This document shows positions 11,871 through 32,731 of a DNA stretch of 64,000 bases, one piece after another. Source of the stretch: Ignavibacteriota bacterium (GTDB taxonomy: Bacteria; Bacteroidota; Ignavibacteria; UBA10030; BY39); assembly GCA_003327435.1 (NCBI GenBank), contig QOQV01000012.1, positions 1 through 64,000 on the forward strand. The letters are read 5' to 3'. The position numbers and the translations under genes are program-made. Under the pieces are notes generated by a model. It saw only the letters and a program-made list of their open reading frames with translations. It ran no database searches and had not been told where the DNA came from. The first letter of the stretch is position 1. Each line of letters opens with the position of its first letter.

Positions 11871-11943
11871 GGGGCTGTAGCTCAGCTGGGAGAGCGTTCG
11901 GTTCGCATCCGAAAGGTCGAGGGTTCGAATCCCTTCAGCTCCA
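11871..11943 (+). tRNA. tRNA-Ala (anticodon CGC)
   Basis: A complete cloverleaf folds. The acceptor stem pairs GGGGCTG with CAGCTCC and includes the G3-U70 wobble that is the identity element for alanyl-tRNA synthetase. The D-arm is GCTC/GAGC, the anticodon stem TTCGG/CCGAA has loop TTCGCAT (anticodon CGC, reading GCG), and the T-arm is GAGGG/CCCTT with loop TTCGAAT. The discriminator base is A, and the CCA end is not encoded. The SRP RNA begins one base downstream. Confidence 0.95.
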
Positions 11944-11944
11944 C

Positions 11945-12048
11945 AAGAGGTCAAGTCCTGTGCAACCGTATTCAACCTAACCCCGCCAGGTCCGGAAGGA
12001 AGCAACGGTAAGTTGAAAAAGGTGTGACGCAGGGTAGCTTGGCCTCTT
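11945..12048 (+). ncRNA. ffs: Small signal recognition particle RNA (4.5S type)
   Basis: The conserved SRP domain IV is explicit: GCCAGGTCCGGAAGGAAGCA on the 5' arm with its GGAA tetraloop, and GGTGTGACGCAGGGTAGCTTGGCC on the 3' side, broken here as GGTGTGACGCAGG then GTAGCTTGGCC. The ends AAGAGG/CCTCTT close the long hairpin. It binds Ffh and targets nascent membrane and secreted proteins. About 104 nt is the usual bacterial small form. It starts one base after tRNA-Ala, implying a joint precursor cut by tRNA-processing enzymes. Confidence 0.94.
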
Positions 12049-23373: not shown

Positions 23374-25509
23374 ATGGAAAAAATAGACAATAAAAATTTT
23401 AACTCACGTACATATTTACAAATCATAGAGCAACTAAAAAATTTGGCTTATAATTTATGGTGGACATGGAATCCAGAAGCTGCTCTTATATTTAAGGAAT
23501 TATCACCGTTAGTGTGGGAGACCAGTAATCACAGTGCGGTTGCAGTTTTGAAACGTGTTTCCGATGCTGAAATCATAGCTCGACTTGGTGATCCAGATTT
23601 TTATAAGCGTGTTACATTAGTATTGGATGAATTTGCTGATTATATGTCCAATACAAACACCTGGTGTGCTCAAAATTATCCGGAATTTCTGAACAAACCA
23701 ATTGCATATTTTTCCGCTGAATTCGGACTGCATGAATGCCTACCAATTTATTCTGGTGGGCTTGGAGTCCTCGCAGGTGATTTTGCCAAATCTGCAAGCG
23801 ATCTCGGTATAAATTTCTATGGTGTAAGCTTATACTATCGGCTTGGCTATTTCAAACAAAGGATATCCGATGATGGATGGCAATTCGAAGAATATCCACA
23901 AATCAATGCTGATGACGTTCCTATTCAACCGTTGGTAGATAAAAAAGGAAGACCAGTTCAAACCTCTGTGACAATTGGACACAGTATCGTTAAACTAAAT
24001 GCATGGAAAATCAATGTAGGTAGAGTATCTATAATTTTATTAGATAGCAACTTACCTGAAAATGAGTTGCATTTTCGGGAACTTACAGGCAGAGTTTATG
24101 GAGGGGATATATCAACCCGTATTATGCAGGAGATAGTTTTAGGCATTGGTGGAGTGAGAATTCTGCGAGCAATTGGAATCGAACCAGAAATATTTCATAT
24201 GAATGAAGGTCATTCAGCATTTCTTACACTCGAACTATTGAGAGAACAGATAAGTAAAGGTATGCCACTGGCTCAGGCAGAAGAGTATGTTAAAAAACAT
24301 TGTGTATTTACAACTCATACACCGGTAGAAGCCGGCCATGATCGATTTCCAAAAAGCTTAATTGAATTGCAACTTTCCAATTACCTGAAGGATTTAAAGC
24401 TCTCCGTCGATGAAATTATGAAATACGGTCGTATAAATGAGAAAGATCAGAATGAGTTGTTTTGTATGACGGTTTTGGCGTTAAAATTTTCAAAAGTTTC
24501 GAATGCCGTAAGCAAATTACATTCTCAAGTAAGCAAAGCTATGTGGAAAAATTTGTATCCAGAATTGGAAGTTGATAAAGTTCCAATAATTCATATAACG
24601 AACGGCGTTCATACACCTGGATGGGCTAATGTAAGAGCTCATGAATTCTGGAACAAAAGATTGGGATACGATTGGACGGAAAAAATAATGGATAGGGAAT
24701 ACTGGATAAAGTTTACAAATCATAATATCGCATCTGATGAGGAAATTTGGGCTTTAAGAAATATATTGCGTCGAGAACTAATTGAATTTGTGAGGATGCG
24801 TTATCTGAGTTCGCATTCAAATCGCATATCAATCTCAGAACTGGATCATATTCTATCACCTGACGTTTTAACTATTGGATTTGCAAGAAGATTTGCTGTT
24901 TATAAAAGGGCGCCTTTAATTTTTAGAAATTTAGATGCAATTGATGAATTGGTAAATCATCCTCAAACACCAATTCAATTGATCTTTTCTGGTAAAGCAC
25001 ACCCCAGAGATGATGAAGGTAAAAGATTTATTCAAAAGATTATTAATTATACCAAAGATCCAAGATTTTCTGGGAAAATTGTATTTATTGAAAATTATGA
25101 TATGAATATTGCAAGGTATTTAATTTCTGGTTCAGATGTATGGTTAAATACACCCAGAAGACCGCTTGAGGCGAGTGGAACAAGTGGAATGAAAATTACT
25201 ATACATGGTGGATTGCATTTAAGCACACTTGATGGTTGGTGGGTTGAAGGATATAACGGTAAAAACGGTTGGGCGATTGGGAATGAGCGTTCATATCCAG
25301 ATGAAGAGACACAGGATCAGGTGGATGCGGATTCGCTTATAAGTATTTTAAAGAAAGAAGTTATTCCAGAATTTTATAATAGGGACAGACAGGGAATTCC
25401 GCGGGAATGGATTAAAAGAATTCGTATATCGATACAAAGTTTAATCACGGAATTCAGCTCCCATCGAATGGTTTCAGAATATATGCAAAAGTGTTATCAT
25501 AAAATATGA
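23374..25509 (+). CDS. glgP: Alpha-glucan (glycogen/maltodextrin) phosphorylase
   Basis: A GT35 phosphorylase that releases glucose-1-phosphate from alpha-1,4-glucans. It is of the 700-850 residue type found in Thermotoga-like and archaeal enzymes. The N-terminal LAYNLWWTWNPEA region, the substrate segment YFSAEFGLHECLPIYSGGLG, FTTHTPVEAGHDRF and EASGTSGMK (PLP lysine about residue 607) are all visible. At 711 residues it is slightly short but complete. It ends the plus-strand run from enolase and overlaps the convergent rluE by 13 bp. The product feeds the mutase at 20618. Confidence 0.93.
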   Translation: MEKIDNKNFNSRTYLQIIEQLKNLAYNLWWTWNPEAALIFKELSPLVWETSNHSAVAVLKRVSDAEIIARLGDPDFYKRVTLVLDEFADYMSNTNTWCAQNYPEFLNKPIAYFSAEFGLHECLPIYSGGLGVLAGDFAKSASDLGINFYGVSLYYRLGYFKQRISDDGWQFEEYPQINADDVPIQPLVDKKGRPVQTSVTIGHSIVKLNAWKINVGRVSIILLDSNLPENELHFRELTGRVYGGDISTRIMQEIVLGIGGVRILRAIGIEPEIFHMNEGHSAFLTLELLREQISKGMPLAQAEEYVKKHCVFTTHTPVEAGHDRFPKSLIELQLSNYLKDLKLSVDEIMKYGRINEKDQNELFCMTVLALKFSKVSNAVSKLHSQVSKAMWKNLYPELEVDKVPIIHITNGVHTPGWANVRAHEFWNKRLGYDWTEKIMDREYWIKFTNHNIASDEEIWALRNILRRELIEFVRMRYLSSHSNRISISELDHILSPDVLTIGFARRFAVYKRAPLIFRNLDAIDELVNHPQTPIQLIFSGKAHPRDDEGKRFIQKIINYTKDPRFSGKIVFIENYDMNIARYLISGSDVWLNTPRRPLEASGTSGMKITIHGGLHLSTLDGWWVEGYNGKNGWAIGNERSYPDEETQDQVDADSLISILKKEVIPEFYNRDRQGIPREWIKRIRISIQSLITEFSSHRMVSEYMQKCYHKI

Positions 25510-26090
25510 CTTCTTAATTTCTCAATTTCATGGTCATTAAGTTCCCTGTGTTCTCCCGGCTTCAAATTTCCTAATTTTACATTTCCAATTTTTATTCTTA
25601 CTAAGCGTAATGTTGGATGACCTACTGCAGCGGTCATCTTGCGAACCTGTCTATTCCTTCCTTCATAGATTGTTAATTCAAGCCACGATGTAGGTACATT
25701 CTTCCTGTATCTGATTGGAATTTCCCTTTCCCATATTTCTGGCGGGGTTTTCAGCAGACGAACCTCCGCTGGCAAAGTTCTTTTACCTTCAATAATTACT
25801 CCCGCTCTCAGTTTATCAAGGGTTACTGGATCTGGAATTCTTTCTACTTGAACAAGATAAGTTCTGGGATGTTTGTGCTTTGGGTGTAATAAAAAATTAA
25901 TTAATCTTTTATCGTTTGTTAATAATACCAAACCCTCACTATCGTAATCCAGTCTTCCTGCTGGATAAACATCTTTTGGAAAATTTCCCAAATCGGAAAG
26001 AGTCCTTCTTCCAGCTCTATCGGTAAATTGACACAGAACACCATAAGGTTTGTTCAAGATTATATACTTGAATTCCTTTCTGTTAAACAT
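25497..26090 (-). CDS. rluE: 23S rRNA pseudouridine synthase, RluE/RsuA family
   Basis: The 197-residue protein lacks an S4 domain and begins directly with ILNKPYGVLCQF. The catalytic Asp sits in AGRLDYDSEGLVLLTND (about residue 46), and the C-terminus has the EGRNRQVRKM signature. RluE modifies U2457 of 23S rRNA in E. coli. The gene overlaps the upstream DUF523 gene by 8 bp and the convergent glgP by 13 bp. Confidence 0.9.
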   Translation of the reverse strand: MFNRKEFKYIILNKPYGVLCQFTDRAGRRTLSDLGNFPKDVYPAGRLDYDSEGLVLLTNDKRLINFLLHPKHKHPRTYLVQVERIPDPVTLDKLRAGVIIEGKRTLPAEVRLLKTPPEIWEREIPIRYRKNVPTSWLELTIYEGRNRQVRKMTAAVGHPTLRLVRIKIGNVKLGNLKPGEHRELNDHEIEKLRSHIL

Positions 26091-27042
26091 GATTTCTCAA
26101 CATTAATTCCTTTGGATGAGGATTTAAGTATGTCTGAAATTTTATATATTCGATATTGTGCTTTTCAATATAATGACGAATCAGGGTAAGTGGTACAATC
26201 AAGGGTACCAACTCGTTTTGGTAATCATTAATAATTTTTACTATTGCATCTTTTTCAAATTTATCCAAGATATTTTTTAAATAACCCAAAATATGAAATA
26301 GAACATTTGCATTTTTTTTGGTTGTTGTTTTAATTTTTAATGCTTCCATAAAGATTTTAGAATATCTTTCTCTTAATTCTGAAGTGCCATAAAATTTTGC
26401 CTTTGCAACAATATTGCCTAATTCCCTGTAATGTTTTTCACTATGTGATAACAATTGCAATTTTTCGTAAGTATGGAATCGAACAAGTTCTCCTCTTGAA
26501 AATTTTCGTGAAAATAAGTTTAATAATCTGTTATATGCAAATACGCGTTCTATAAAATTTTCCCGGATTTTAATGTCATTTAATCTACCTTCTTCTTCCA
26601 CTGGTATCAAAGGAAATTGCTCAATAAAACTTCTTGCAAAAATACCAATTCCTTCTTTACTTGGTGAGCCAGATTGTGAGTAAACCCGAACACGTTCCAT
26701 ACCACAGGTTGGTGAATCTTTTTTAAAAATAAATCCACTTAAATTCATTTCAGCAAGTTGTTTATTCCTCATTTGTGAGAATTTTTTCATTTCATCTGTC
26801 CAATCCCTGCCTGATTTTGTTCCAACCAGATTTGGATTATTGGCTTTTCCAACTAAGCGTATAGCTTCACGAGGTACTCCCATTCCAACTTCAACCTCAG
26901 GACATACAGGTATCCATTCAACATATTTACCCAATATGTTTGTTAAATATAGATCTTTTTTGTGCCCCGCATCAAATCTTACCTTTTCACCCAAAAGGCA
27001 AGAACTTATTCCTATCCGAATTGGAATTTCATCATTAAACAT
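26083..27042 (-). CDS. DUF523-DUF1722 protein (TudS-like N-domain)
   Basis: Residues 1-165 are a DUF523 domain with three conserved cysteine sites: SSCLLGEKVRFD, PVCPEVEVG and SPTCGMERV. In the 2-thiouracil desulfurase branch these hold a [4Fe-4S] cluster. Residues about 190-319 form DUF1722, a helical domain found in YbgA-like proteins. The fusion architecture is common. By family knowledge it may remove sulfur from thiolated bases; here that is inferred. It overlaps rluE by 8 bp, and the restored frame of the upstream SRPBCC gene overlaps its start by 8 bp. Confidence 0.85.
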   Translation of the reverse strand: MFNDEIPIRIGISSCLLGEKVRFDAGHKKDLYLTNILGKYVEWIPVCPEVEVGMGVPREAIRLVGKANNPNLVGTKSGRDWTDEMKKFSQMRNKQLAEMNLSGFIFKKDSPTCGMERVRVYSQSGSPSKEGIGIFARSFIEQFPLIPVEEEGRLNDIKIRENFIERVFAYNRLLNLFSRKFSRGELVRFHTYEKLQLLSHSEKHYRELGNIVAKAKFYGTSELRERYSKIFMEALKIKTTTKKNANVLFHILGYLKNILDKFEKDAIVKIINDYQNELVPLIVPLTLIRHYIEKHNIEYIKFQTYLNPHPKELMLRNHV

Positions 27043-27495
27043 GATTATCTCTAAATGTCTCTTGAATTTTTAATTTTCTATAATCAAATATATCATTTAA
27101 TTTTTTTCTAACAAAAAATCTATTAATTATAGGTGATAAAACCCGCCATATAACTCATATTCAACTAAATCAATCATTAAAATAAAATCAGGGAATTCCT
27201 TAAAAATATGTGAGTGTACCCATTTTTTGTATGGACCTTTGATTTGTGTATCTACAAATTTATATGGTGGATTATATTCTGAAATTATGGATTTCCATTT
27301 TACTCTAATACCGAGAATTTTAATTGTATATTCGAATTCAGAATTTTCTTTTACTATATAAGGTCTGTTGCTTATAATTTTAAATTGTAGCCAGGGCGGT
27401 GTGATTTTTTCAAGATTTTCGACTTTTTCAAAGAAAGCAAAAACATCTTCTAACTTTGAATAAATTTTTTGTTCTCGATATAAATTAAAAATCAT
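27035..27495 (-). pseudogene. SRPBCC-family (START-like) protein, frameshifted
   Basis: Residues 1-117 match the SRPBCC lipid/ligand-binding family (PPWLQFKI, LVEYELYGG). The frame then runs into a TAA at 27127 after only 122 residues. Continuing on the same strand one frame over, the DNA reads VLSPIINRFFVRKK then LNDIFDYRKLK, which is exactly the expected family C-terminus, ending at 27035. Adding one base within the run AAAACCC (27138-27144, plus strand) restores a protein of about 152 residues. The restored gene overlaps the next gene by 8 bp and the TonB receptor by 4 bp. Either a real one-base deletion or an assembly error. Confidence 0.8.
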
Positions 27496-29771
27496 AGTTC
27501 AGCACTAATTCCTATCGAGGGTATAATTCCAATCGATTGGGCATCATCTACTTTTTTATTTCTTGGATCCCAGCGAATAAAATTAACATTTTTACGATTA
27601 TATATATTCTGTACATCCAAGTAAGTAATTAGTACCCATTTTTCAAAGAACCATCTGCGATCAATTCTCAGATCCACGCTATGGTTAGGTGGCAATCTTT
27701 TAGTGTTGTAATTTGCGATTGATTGAGTTCCATCTGGATTGAATGGTGTGTAGGGTTTACCAGTTGAATATCTAAATTTAATTGTAGCTTGCCATCTTTC
27801 ATTAAATATATATCCTCCGCTTAAATTTATGATCCAGCTTTGATCATAGGAACCTATTCTGGAAATCCCGTCAAGCGCAGAAAATTTAGTCTTGCTATAT
27901 GTGACACTTAAAAGTCCAAAATGGGGAATATCGGATGATTTTTTCTGTATTGATAATTCGATTCCATTTGAGTTTCCCTTTCCCTGACTGACTAATGGTT
28001 CAAGTCCGAATGATGAAAAGTTATCATCTGCACCTGAAAATCCAGCTCCGGTATTTGAGAGTACAAGATATGGGCGTAATTCACTTGCAGGATAATTTTG
28101 ATAGAATTTATTAAAGTACTCTAATTTTAAATTGATGTCTTCCCTTAATAATTGCTCAAATCCAAATATTATATGATTTGCTCTGATATGCTTAAGGTTT
28201 TTATTTTTTTCATTCCCTGTAAGCCATATATAAGAAGGACTTTGATAATAAACTCCACTACTTAGGTTAATAAAAGTATTTTGCAACAGTTGATATGATA
28301 ACCCAAATCTTGGGCTAAAAACAGATTTATTTGTTAATGCGTCGAAATAATCGTATCTGGTTCCGAGAGTTATTCTCAATTTGTTAAAATAATATCCACC
28401 ATATTGTAAATAAAATCCGATTTTATGAAATCTGCTTCTATCGTTTTTGTTAAGTGTTAATGTGTCTCCAAAGCTTGTAACAAATTGTGGGATCCTTATG
28501 TCGTAATTAAATTTTATTGATTTAATTTCCGTTCCGAGACTGAATTCCGATTTTTTGGTTAGTTTATAAACAAGTTCAGATTTTAATACATTTTCACCTT
28601 CTCTTGAATCATTTAAAAATATTGGATTGAGAATGGAGTCTCTTTGTGATGTGTTGAAATCTGCAAAATTCCGGTTTAAACTGAATTTTAAAAATCCTTT
28701 GTTGAAGAAGTATTTGTAACTCAATCCAGTTAGATACTGGATTTGATCACTTCCCAGAGCTCTTGAGTTCTTGTAACGGCTCTCTGAATCTTTATTGAAA
28801 AAACGGACATAATCAAATGCTCCAACAAACAAGAAGGAGATGGAGTTGTATGCGTTTATATTGTAATCCACTTTTGAAATTACATCGTAATACTCAGGAA
28901 CGAATGAAAAGCCTGCAGATTTAAATATGAAATCGAGGTAACTTCTTCTTGCAGAAAAGAAAAATGAGGATTTATTTGATATTGGTCCTTCGATGTTTAA
29001 ACCGAATTGGGTTGCTGATATTGTTAGTTTTCCACCTAATCTATCGTTTCTGCCTTCTCTCAGGTTGATTGAAAGGACCGAAGAAAGCTTGTCTCCATAA
29101 TTTACTGAAAATCCCCCGGTTGAGAAAAATGATTCTTTAACAAAATCTAAATTTATGTAACTTAAAGGTCCGCCAGTAGCTCCTTGTGTGCCAAAATGAT
29201 TAATATTTTGTGCAACATAGCCATCTATTAAATACAAATTTTCTGATGGTGCTCCACCTCGAACAATTAAATCGTTTCTTCCAGCATCTGCTTGTGCAAC
29301 CCCGGGAAGTACCGAAACGGCTCTAATAACATCTTCAAAACCACCGGGAAATCGTCTTATCTCCTCATAATTAAAATTAGTAATGCTGGTGAGTTCATAT
29401 GGATTGCGAGTAAAAATTTCATTTGTTACTACAACTTGCTCTAATTCAATTGGGGATTCGTTAAGTTGAAAATCTACTTGTACAGGTCGGGAAGTCATAA
29501 CCATAATATCTGTTTTTATTTCTGCTTTATACCCAATTGATGAAGCACGAATTTGATAGATATTAACTGGAATTTTATCAATTAAAAATTTTCCATCTAA
29601 ATCAGTTACAGTACCATAGTCAGTTCCTATAATTATAACATTAGCACCAGGAATTGGTTGTTGAGTAATTGCATCTACAACCTTTCCTACAATACTTCCG
29701 AATTTTTCTTCACCAATGGAAAAGTTGATAAGTAAGATTAACAGAAATATTAGTTTAAAAATTGATTTCAT
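27492..29771 (-). CDS. TonB-dependent outer-membrane receptor
   Basis: The 759-residue protein has a signal peptide (about 1-20), a carboxypeptidase-regulatory-like beta-sandwich (about 24-110; GSIVGKVVDAITQQPIPGANV), a plug domain (about 115-230; RGGAPSENLYLIDGY) and a long beta-barrel ending with the aromatic-poor EL terminus. This N-domain is typical of FCB-group receptors. The substrate is unknown; no binding-protein (SusD-like) gene is adjacent. It overlaps the SRPBCC gene downstream by 4 bp. Confidence 0.9.
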   Translation of the reverse strand: MKSIFKLIFLLILLINFSIGEEKFGSIVGKVVDAITQQPIPGANVIIIGTDYGTVTDLDGKFLIDKIPVNIYQIRASSIGYKAEIKTDIMVMTSRPVQVDFQLNESPIELEQVVVTNEIFTRNPYELTSITNFNYEEIRRFPGGFEDVIRAVSVLPGVAQADAGRNDLIVRGGAPSENLYLIDGYVAQNINHFGTQGATGGPLSYINLDFVKESFFSTGGFSVNYGDKLSSVLSINLREGRNDRLGGKLTISATQFGLNIEGPISNKSSFFFSARRSYLDFIFKSAGFSFVPEYYDVISKVDYNINAYNSISFLFVGAFDYVRFFNKDSESRYKNSRALGSDQIQYLTGLSYKYFFNKGFLKFSLNRNFADFNTSQRDSILNPIFLNDSREGENVLKSELVYKLTKKSEFSLGTEIKSIKFNYDIRIPQFVTSFGDTLTLNKNDRSRFHKIGFYLQYGGYYFNKLRITLGTRYDYFDALTNKSVFSPRFGLSYQLLQNTFINLSSGVYYQSPSYIWLTGNEKNKNLKHIRANHIIFGFEQLLREDINLKLEYFNKFYQNYPASELRPYLVLSNTGAGFSGADDNFSSFGLEPLVSQGKGNSNGIELSIQKKSSDIPHFGLLSVTYSKTKFSALDGISRIGSYDQSWIINLSGGYIFNERWQATIKFRYSTGKPYTPFNPDGTQSIANYNTKRLPPNHSVDLRIDRRWFFEKWVLITYLDVQNIYNRKNVNFIRWDPRNKKVDDAQSIGIIPSIGISAEL

Positions 29772-29831: not shown

Positions 29832-30335
29832 TTAATTAAAATAGAAGTGGAAACCGACGTTATTAAAGCTGAGAGCTCGCAGTGCTGTAATTCCCCATTT
29901 GGAATCATCTGATGGATGGCTCAGCTGTTCAAATTGTAAACCATGACCTACGCTGAGTGTGAAATTTTCTGTAATCCACCATTCAGCACCTAAATCTGCA
30001 GTGATAATAATTTTAGATTTTAGGTCTGCTCCAACTGTTCTTGCGTTGGTTTGCAATTCAAATCCTGGTCGGATAAAGAAATTTACTGAATTGGTTTTGA
30101 AAACATTTACTGGTAAACCAATATTGAGGTGAAAACGATCTTTATCGGAACCTAAAAAGTTTTTATCAGCATATCCTAAACCGAGATCAAGTCCGTAATT
30201 GGAATTGAACCAAATACGACCACCAACTGGAGCTGATGATGAATACCAGCCTAAGCCATATTTCATCTCGTTAGCGGATACAGTTGATATAACTAAAAGT
30301 GTTATTAGGATATTTAGTATTATTGATTTTTTCAT
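29832..30335 (-). CDS. Small outer-membrane beta-barrel protein
   Basis: The 167-residue protein has a signal peptide ending near residue 21 (STVSANE) and alternating amphipathic strands rich in Gly, aromatic residues and Asn (LDLGLGYADKN, HLNIGLPVNVF, FFIRPGFELQ), ending in FHFYFN with the C-terminal aromatic typical of barrels. It is probably an 8-stranded barrel of unknown function. AAAGGAG precedes the start. It follows the CarH-like gene by 32 bp, so it could be under light-dependent control; that is inference. Confidence 0.65.
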   Translation of the reverse strand: MKKSIILNILITLLVISTVSANEMKYGLGWYSSSAPVGGRIWFNSNYGLDLGLGYADKNFLGSDKDRFHLNIGLPVNVFKTNSVNFFIRPGFELQTNARTVGADLKSKIIITADLGAEWWITENFTLSVGHGLQFEQLSHPSDDSKWGITALRALSFNNVGFHFYFN

Positions 30336-30367: not shown

Positions 30368-31285
30368 TTATTTATTATTTATTTTGTGTTTTTTACCTGG
30401 TTTTAATTTAAATACATTCTTTACAAATTCTATAGTATCTGTGGTGGAATATGCAATTAAATCTACCTGCAAATCTTCCTTTGCAAATAGATTTGAATAA
30501 ATTCCACCACAGATTATTTTGCCGTTATAGCTGTGGGTTAATTCAGCTATCTCTCGGACGGCTTCTTTAAATTTTGATTTTGGAATTTCTGGTGATGTAG
30601 CCGATAAACAAACCAGTTTTGGCTTATGCTTTTGAATATAAGTTTTTAATGATTTAAAAGGTGTATCTATTCCTAAGCTTGTAACCTGAAAACCTTCAAT
30701 TTCCAGAGCATAAGATATTGCAATGATTCCTATGTCATGTAACTCACCTTCAACACATGCACAGATGGCATTTAAGCCATTTGGATTTTTATGAAATAAT
30801 ACAGAACCCAATCTAATTAAAGCTTCTTTAACAGCAGTTGAGGAGAGATGTTCCTGGTCAACATCAATAGTTTTTTCCTGCCATAATTCTCCAATTCTGG
30901 CGAGTGCAGGATGTAAAACCTCATCAATTATTGTTGTAAACTGTACATGATTTCTGTAGAGATAAAGCAATAAATTTTCCAGACCCGCTTTATCACCCTG
31001 AAGTGCTTCAATTTTAAAAATATCAGCTACTAATTGATAATTTTTTGTGTATACACCAAATTCTAAGTTTTTGAGCTGTTTTGAAGATAATGGTGGGGGA
31101 ATGACACCGGTTATTGGGAAGGAGTTTTCTTCTGCAAATTTAAGGATGTCATTAATATAAAATTTACGGTGGCCACCAAGAGTTTTGGTGCAGGGCAATT
31201 TTCCAGCTTCAGACCAGCGTTTTACCGTCGTTTCCGTAATATTTAGCAAAGAAGCTACTTCTTTTGTTGATAATTGAGTTTTCAT
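30368..31285 (-). CDS. CarH-like B12-binding light-responsive transcription regulator
   Basis: Residues 1-50 are a MerR/excisionase-type winged helix (STKEVASLLNITETTVKRW, LGGHRKFY). Residues about 75-165 form the helical B12 cap with W135-x9-E145-H146, the Wx9EH motif that contacts the adenosyl group in CarH. Residues about 170-295 form the B12-binding domain with E181-x-H183-xx-G186, the lower-ligand motif. CarH represses genes in the dark as an adenosylcobalamin-bound tetramer and is released by light. The residue after Trp135 is Gln136, where the Thermus protein has the His that ligates cobalt after illumination. The photolyase gene lies just upstream on the same strand. Confidence 0.88.
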   Translation of the reverse strand: MKTQLSTKEVASLLNITETTVKRWSEAGKLPCTKTLGGHRKFYINDILKFAEENSFPITGVIPPPLSSKQLKNLEFGVYTKNYQLVADIFKIEALQGDKAGLENLLLYLYRNHVQFTTIIDEVLHPALARIGELWQEKTIDVDQEHLSSTAVKEALIRLGSVLFHKNPNGLNAICACVEGELHDIGIIAISYALEIEGFQVTSLGIDTPFKSLKTYIQKHKPKLVCLSATSPEIPKSKFKEAVREIAELTHSYNGKIICGGIYSNLFAKEDLQVDLIAYSTTDTIEFVKNVFKLKPGKKHKINNK

Positions 31286-31293
31286 TTAGATTT

Positions 31294-31356
31294 CGTTATG
31301 TATGTTATGTTCGTTTTGAACGGTTTAAATATACAAAATAATTTTTTAATTGTCAA
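31294..31356 (-). promoter_or_regulatory. Promoter and candidate operator of the carH-like gene
   Basis: On the minus strand TTGACA (31351-31356) and TATATT (31328-31333) have a 17-base spacer, nearly the ideal sigma-70 promoter. Just downstream lie an inverted repeat GTTC-AAAAC-GAAC and two CATAAC direct repeats 9 bases apart (about 31294-31319, plus-strand coordinates). Their position between promoter and start suits an autoregulatory operator, which is inferred. Confidence 0.55.
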
Positions 31357-31372
31357 GTTTTAAAATATTATT

Positions 31373-32731
31373 TTATAGATTTATTGGTATGAATTTTTTT
31401 ATATAGGATTTAACATCAAATTTGTGTTTACATCCAGAATAGTTCATGTAGCGAATTTTACCAAAAACATTTCTTTCTCCCCATGCACGGTCATGAACTC
31501 CTCCAATTGACCACGCAATACCAGTATAACCATTAGGATCGTTTCCATCTAACTCATATTTGTCATTTAATTCTGTCGCAATATTAAGCGCATCTTCAGG
31601 GTGTCTTGTCCATTCTAAAATTTTCTTTGCCCAGTACATTCTCATATATCCATGCATTTTTCCTTTCTCGAGCATTTCTATTTGTGCAGCATTCCATAAT
31701 GAATCATGTGTCTCAGCTTCTTCAAATTGTCTCAGCGTATAAATATATTCTCTCTTATCATATCTATGTTTATTTAGAGTTTCTTTTGCCCAATTGGGAA
31801 AACCATTAAAAGAATCATAATTTGGATTGTAATAACAGAAATTGTCTGAAAGTTCCTTTCTGATTATTAATTCTTCGAGAAAAGCTTCTTTTGAAACTTT
31901 GTTTGTTTCAACTTTTATAACTTCAAGAGCTATTCTTTGAGAACTGATCTGTCCTAAATTCAGGTATGGTGAAAGGTTTGATTGTCCATCCTGATTTGGA
32001 TCATTCCGACTAAATGAGTAATGTTTTAACTTTTTGTTGATGAAAAGCTTCATCAACTTTATTGCTTCATCTTCACCTGATTTCAACCAGGTCAATTCAG
32101 AAGCATCTGTTTTTAGTCTTAAATATTTTTTCAAATAATTCCAGTTGATCTCGGGACATCTAATTTCCCAATTATATTTTTGCTTTTTGATCTGTGGAAA
32201 TGTTTCAAGGTACTCTGATAAATTTCTTTTTATCTTTGGTCTGATTGTATAAGCTCCAAATTCTAATTTATCAGAGGCAACCCAGACAGGGACTATATTA
32301 TGAGTATCAACTTCATAAAAAGGTATATTGATTTTTTTTGAAATTTTTTCTTTAAATAATTTTACATTTTTTAGTGGAGAGAAATCAGATATCAATATAC
32401 CTATTTTGTTTGTATTAATAAATTCAGGTAAGGTTTCTGAGGGATTGCCTGTTAAAATATAGAAAGGAATATTTTTTTTCTTTAAACTTGAATCTATTTT
32501 TACAAGTCCGTTTAACATAAATTCATACTGTCTGGAATTTAAATTTCGGAATTCTGGATATAAACAAAATATTACAGCAAAAGGAGATTTGTATTTTATT
32601 GAAAGTTCCTGTGCGTAAATAAGTGCCCAATTATCGTTGATTCTCTGGTCTCGATCCATCCAGTATAATATTGGTCCACCTGAATAAAGAATGTAATTTA
32701 AGTTTTTTACACGATTTAGGTTCATTTTCAA
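31373..32731 (-). CDS. phr: Class II deoxyribodipyrimidine photolyase
   Basis: The 452-residue flavoprotein repairs cyclobutane pyrimidine dimers using blue light. The N-terminal antenna domain (about 15-150) and C-terminal FAD-binding helical domain are present. The class II signatures are clear: ELIIRKELSDNFCYYN (about 305-320), GYMRMYWAKKILEW and NGYTGIAWSIGGVHDRAWGE. It starts 6 bp after the M14 peptidase gene and is followed by the CarH-like regulator. Light-dependent repair beside a light-dependent regulator is a natural pairing. Confidence 0.95.
   Translation of the reverse strand: MKMNLNRVKNLNYILYSGGPILYWMDRDQRINDNWALIYAQELSIKYKSPFAVIFCLYPEFRNLNSRQYEFMLNGLVKIDSSLKKKNIPFYILTGNPSETLPEFINTNKIGILISDFSPLKNVKLFKEKISKKINIPFYEVDTHNIVPVWVASDKLEFGAYTIRPKIKRNLSEYLETFPQIKKQKYNWEIRCPEINWNYLKKYLRLKTDASELTWLKSGEDEAIKLMKLFINKKLKHYSFSRNDPNQDGQSNLSPYLNLGQISSQRIALEVIKVETNKVSKEAFLEELIIRKELSDNFCYYNPNYDSFNGFPNWAKETLNKHRYDKREYIYTLRQFEEAETHDSLWNAAQIEMLEKGKMHGYMRMYWAKKILEWTRHPEDALNIATELNDKYELDGNDPNGYTGIAWSIGGVHDRAWGERNVFGKIRYMNYSGCKHKFDVKSYIKKFIPINL

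Follow-up and report, generated by a model that had tools for sequence, protein, structure and literature searches.

We consider it likely that the window analysed here, a stretch of 64,000 nt from an Ignavibacteriota contig, encodes a CtMerR-type adenosylcobalamin (AdoCbl) photoreceptor that in the dark acts through 9-bp direct repeats as a repressor of its own operon, and that light induces this operon. The features on which this reading is built are the following.

31373..32731, minus strand: class II CPD photolyase gene, upstream of the operator and 6 nt after an M14 peptidase gene
31351..31356, minus strand: −35 element TTGACA of the carH-like promoter, 11/12 consensus, top promoter-like site of the region
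31328..31333, minus strand: −10 element TATATT, from promoter match and orthologue alignment
31289..31324, minus strand: predicted operator, four 9-bp direct repeats (ACCGTTCAA, AACGAACAT, AACATACAT, AACGAAATC) directly downstream of the −10 element
30368..31285, minus strand: carH-like (CtMerR-type) gene of a predicted AdoCbl photoreceptor-regulator of 305 aa, from domains, signature and fold; its Pfam domains are HTH_17 (5-55), four-helix B12-binding_2 (95-158), and Rossmann B12-binding (173-263)

A preliminary description had recognised a B12 regulator adjoining a class II photolyase, and both genes were found at these positions on the minus strand, together with the Pfam domains. Judged by its sequence, the regulator is of the CtMerR type and not a canonical MerR-type CarH. 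HTH_17 was the best-scoring profile for the DNA-binding domain, which resembles BldC and excisionase, and the MerR models were weaker. The CarH equivalog NF052513 gave 67 bits, below its cut-off of 400, and the BldC family NF033787 gave 47.7 bits over residues 5-48, below its cut-off of 77. The likeness to Streptomyces BldC (6AMA/6AMK) thus appears to be confined to the type of DNA-binding domain and the 9-bp length of the direct repeats; unlike the regulator, BldC has no sensor domain.

The closest PDB relative by sequence is 8JBS, i.e. CtMerR (E 2e-34). The AF2 model of the regulator (pLDDT 93.7) has a CtMerR-type sensor fold, a four-helix bundle plus a Rossmann domain, which superimposes on 8JBS with a Z score of 28.1 and 1.9 Å over 226 residues, whereas the values for methionine synthase and the TtCarH CBD are well below (Z about 18–19). 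In a tree of 78 proteins, the regulator forms a supported clade (100/99) with those of the congener G395, of genomes G255 and G172, and of loci L107, L108 and L109. It is a single-copy gene in a genome of 2.63 Mb (23 contigs, 98.6% complete); a second match to a B12 domain, on contig C19, lies within a 1152-aa frame of methionine-synthase size.

CtMerR of Chloracidobacterium thermophilum (8JBS/8JBT) is an AdoCbl-binding protein; green light photolyses it to the aquo/hydroxo-Cbl form and turns the tetramer into monomers (PMC11796333). The regulator shares with it the domain order, a DNA-binding domain that differs from the one in CarH, the full GxxW/EH/ExH/P signature, and the lack of a His after the Trp. 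The two proteins differ in having about 26% identity, in phylum, and in gene neighbourhood. With canonical CarH/LitR proteins (Thermus thermophilus CarH, 5C8D/5C8E; M. xanthus CarH) the regulator has in common the sensor of B12-binding_2 and B12-binding domains, the W-x9-EH and ExHxxG motifs, and a frequent location near photolyase and crtB. In contrast to them, it has an HTH_17/BldC-like instead of a MerR domain, no His at the CarH 132 position, and linked targets that are non-carotenoid genes. From the CarH-like AdoCbl light sensor of the preliminary description, we therefore retain, by homology, a probable AdoCbl-type photosensory regulator linked to photorepair, but not the assignment to canonical CarH, given the HTH_17/BldC-like domain and the NF052513 score.

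The light signature of the CtMerR type, i.e. GxxW, EH, ExH with the His ligand, and GxxxP, is complete in the regulator (G132, W135, Q136, E145-H146, E181-x-H183-xx-G186, G205, P209). The residue numbers given earlier for the motifs W135-x9-E145-H146 and E181-x-H183-xx-G186 were verified, and G132, W135, E145, H146, H183 and P209 are invariant among 58 aligned relatives. It had also been suggested that the photoproduct may differ, as Gln136 replaces the His of Thermus CarH. The Gln is present, and the His after the signature Trp that underlies the bis-His photoproduct in Thermus is missing, but this is not unusual: of the 75 homologues that have the full signature, 20 carry Glu here, 17 Ala, 10 Gln, 9 Ser, and just 2 His. 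Gln136 thus appears typical of the subfamily and His the exception; at the position of Thermus CarH His132, CtMerR has Arg, SasPcob Gln, and AbDPcob Tyr (PMC11796333). The idea that Gln136 marks unusual photochemistry within the subfamily was dropped after this count. Because residue 136 is Gln, a photoproduct without bis-His ligation is expected, by analogy aquo/hydroxo-Cbl as in CtMerR.

The carH-like proteins of loci L177 and L182 have lost the B12 signature (no Trp, EH, or His ligand) and have kept 9-bp repeats upstream; they are possibly light-independent, CarA-like derivatives. As they indicate that DNA binding can persist without B12 sensing, the regulator could be a B12-bound, light-insensitive protein that merely keeps the signature. 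We regard this as very improbable, because the regulator and its counterpart in the congener both retain every signature residue, and the gene is under purifying selection (dN/dS 0.10 versus G395).

The promoter of the regulator gene (TTGACA-17-TATATT, 31356-31328) outscores every other promoter-like match in the region and is conserved in the orthologue alignment; promoter and repeats are both kept by homologues from seven further genomes. The core pattern CGNNCAWAWCGNNCA has its sole exact match in the 2.6-Mb genome at the regulator's own promoter. In the window alone, the period of 9 is modest (4% of shuffles are as high), and the operator is predicted from the conservation across homologues, not from the periodicity of the window.

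The autocorrelation of 81 regions upstream of carH-like genes, with start codons assigned by rule, rises at period 9 (z 14.6) and period 18 (z 6.5) and at no other, and other genes of the same loci do not have a period-9 peak. CarH operators consist of 11-bp repeats, TnnACA (PMC9304148); repeats of this type were ruled out by a z value of −2.2 for period 11. Coding 3-periodicity was excluded as the source of the signal, as periods 6, 12 and 15 are flat. A weight matrix of two repeats (A[AT]CG[TC][GT]CA[AT] twice, threshold score 12) was trained on most of the carH-like loci. In-sample, scores >12 were obtained for 64% of the carH-like upstream regions versus 1.4% of other genes, and about a third of the training homologues had no site in the stretch scanned. 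The period test, the G255 and G172 upstream regions (scores of 20.4 and 19.0, outside the training set), and the Acidobacteriota are independent of the training. The repeats of the congener score 12.9 and are weaker than those of most of the family.

The held-out Acidobacteriota are the strongest independent evidence for the operator: 28 of 30 homologues scored >12 on either strand, compared with 2.7% of 784 control upstream regions. The set includes L258, which is nearly identical to CtMerR (8JBS) over the 238 residues compared, and close relatives of CtMerR carry the 9-bp repeats upstream. In most of the acidobacterial loci L263-L282, the repeats have the opposite orientation relative to the gene.

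A genome-wide search with CGNNCAWAWCGNNCA and one mismatch yielded 67 matches versus 141 in the reversed control, i.e. no excess that would indicate other operators. Matrix matches elsewhere in the fetched genome stretches had no clear promoter or tandem context, and in the rest of the window no operator-like site scored above 12.1. Rfam models did not reveal a riboswitch in the window. Further features of the window are a tRNA-Ala(CGC) followed directly by a small SRP RNA (11871-12047, plus strand), and a repetitive stretch at 229-594 that reads as NHERSEASDNIQSDSSFVRLPTDSLRMTKPNCHP... and is possibly an intergenic repeat element, not a gene.

In the open-access literature, we found neither a prior report of a 9-bp repeat operator for a cobalamin photoreceptor nor, as far as its accessible parts go, a report of the DNA target of CtMerR. 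The 9-bp tandem repeat is predicted to be the operator, so far unreported, of CtMerR-type regulators. BldC protomers bind head to tail and cooperatively to 9-bp direct repeats (PMC5859096); the BldC repeat is AATTNNNNC, compared with A[AT]CG[TC][GT]CA[AT] upstream of the carH-like genes. Because BldC binds 9-bp and CarH 11-bp repeats, we propose that the subfamily joins a CarH-type sensor with a BldC-type DNA-binding mode.

The regulator gene is followed by five genes, which together with it are predicted to form the controlled operon, to the exclusion of the photolyase gene.

29832..30335, minus strand: 167-aa protein, small and predicted to lie in the outer membrane, 32 nt after the carH-like gene; adjoins carH-like genes in G395 and G172
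27492..29771, minus strand: TonB-dependent receptor with a CarboxypepD_reg N-terminus; together with carH-like genes in G395, G172, G255, L120 and L175
27127..27495, minus strand: SRPBCC/polyketide_cyc-like gene with a disrupted frame near 27145; the congener has an intact version of 155 aa (L106)
26083..27042, minus strand: RudS homologue (TudS/2-thiouracil desulfurase plus DUF1722), predicted tRNA 4-thiouridine eraser
25497..26090, minus strand: RNA pseudouridine synthase, overlaps the end of rudS; last gene of the block

Downstream of the regulator, the genes overlap or are separated by 32 and 60 nt; only behind the broken SRPBCC frame is the gap larger, at 84 nt. Nine genes stand in the identical order in the congener G395, namely DUF2007, M14 peptidase, photolyase, regulator, outer-membrane protein, TonB receptor, SRPBCC, RudS, and pseudouridine synthase. 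In G172, the operator precedes a different order, i.e. regulator, DUF378, outer-membrane protein, photolyase, SRPBCC, SDR, TonB receptor, and RudS, showing that these genes form a set. Within the block, dN/dS indicates the strongest constraint for the TonB receptor (0.04 versus the congener) and RudS. In 80 loci drawn from many phyla, carH-like genes have as neighbours crtI (22), crtB (18), SDR (15), lycopene cyclase-like (15), and photolyase genes (14).

The photolyase scores 615.5 bits with TIGR00591 (cut-off 550), and its closest PDB structures are the class II enzymes 8OET (E 1e-157) and 2XRY, confirming it as a class II CPD photolyase; ATG at 32725 is a likelier start than TTG at 32731. 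The preliminary description envisaged a light-induced operon with the adjacent photolyase under carH-like control. The adjacency is real, in G172 the photolyase lies inside the operon behind the operator, and on Thermus pTT27 carH is one gene away from phr. However, here the photolyase gene ends 87 nt before the regulator start and the predicted operator lies within that gap, i.e. downstream of the photolyase, and the window has no other site above 12.1. We therefore consider a photolyase-containing controlled operon improbable at this locus and place the photolyase probably outside the directly controlled genes, which are those downstream of the regulator itself. With a distance of 6 nt to the peptidase gene, expression from the peptidase transcript seems more likely. 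No terminator was found between the photolyase and carH-like genes, so read-through could put the regulator partly under the upstream promoter.

Carotenoid genes had been noted as absent. This holds for the window, but elsewhere the genome contains a decayed crt cluster (crtB, crtZ, lycopene cyclase, crtI) on contig C18 (C18:365217-369624, L222). The frames of crtB, the cyclase and crtI are broken, while the cluster of G395 (L245) is intact; its acyl- and glycosyltransferase genes have no match in the genome studied here. Some of the frameshifts could be assembly errors, but the damage affects several crt genes and spares the hydrogenase genes next to them, which argues for real decay. As the regulator remains while the crt frames are broken, the predicted light switch persists without intact carotenogenesis. 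Upstream of the intact G395 crt cluster, no 9-bp operator with a score >12 was found.

The supply of AdoCbl is plausible, because the genome encodes a PduO adenosyltransferase (211 bits) and has a cobalamin riboswitch elsewhere. The regulator might sense the level of AdoCbl instead of light and act as a cobalamin-homeostasis repressor, with the TonB receptor importing corrinoids. Within the block, the receptor is indeed one of the best-conserved members, and release from the DNA is expected from both the apo and the photolysed forms. We nevertheless judge this to be unlikely: the family-wide neighbours are photolyases, carotenoid genes and RudS, not B12 genes, an ordinary cobalamin riboswitch exists elsewhere in the genome, and CtMerR is proven to be light-sensitive (PMC11796333). 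In addition, comparison of the receptor with the PDB, a weak test, yielded matches to the N-terminal domain only and no kinship to a B12 receptor.

The light-sensing reading is therefore the one that we prefer. The RudS homologue of the block matches PF04463 (142 bits) and PF08349 (131 bits), i.e. it is a TudS-DUF1722 fusion, and three Cys are common to four homologues. RudS is an eraser of tRNA 4-thiouridine (s4U; PMC11417400), and the 4-thiouridine writer ThiI is encoded in the genome (387 bits). We infer that RudS here removes s4U from tRNA, and its position in the block of a B12 photoreceptor suggests light control of this removal. With RudS and ThiI both present, the operon would have a consistent function in UVA tolerance, alongside DNA photorepair. 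Light operons of Pseudomonas with class II LitR, PhrB and RudS likewise unite a light regulator, a photolyase and RudS in one cluster (PMC9758184, PMC11417400). Class II LitR is, however, reported to lack B12-binding ability and to work through LOV proteins (PMC9758184), and the regulator described here is of another subclass.

In the proposed mechanism, the four-helix/Rossmann sensor would tetramerise in the dark with AdoCbl bound, and the BldC-like domains would line up head to tail on the 9-bp repeats (31289-31324) downstream of the −10 element, blocking RNA polymerase. Light would break the Co-C bond, yielding aquo/hydroxo-Cbl (Gln136) as in CtMerR, and the oligomer would fall apart, allowing transcription to start. 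The light-induced products would be the regulator, the outer-membrane protein, the TonB receptor, SRPBCC (broken here), RudS, and the pseudouridine synthase, and RudS would remove the UVA-sensitive 4-thiouridine from tRNA. The photolyase would be made from the upstream peptidase transcript, probably not directly controlled here. The sequence itself shows the domains, the signature, the promoter, the conserved repeats and the gene order; cofactor binding, light response, repression, photoproduct and RudS activity are predicted.

The conserved 9-bp operator provides a predicted DNA target for the large CtMerR-type subfamily. Regulons of CtMerR-type switches would thereby become readable from genomes, with predictable and testable targets, and optogenetics could gain a green-light switch that binds a site other than that of CarH. 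Because a B12 light sensor is here linked to an eraser of a tRNA modification, the proposal that light controls 4-thiouridine can be tested directly. More broadly, and with the chances in our view evenly balanced, the CtMerR type may represent a second class of B12 light switch that occurs in several phyla and has its own 9-bp operator code, bound head to tail in the manner of BldC. In this genus, the switch would serve nucleic-acid photoprotection (RudS, beside the photolyase) and a pair of outer-membrane import proteins rather than carotenoids, and it would have outlived the decay of carotenogenesis.
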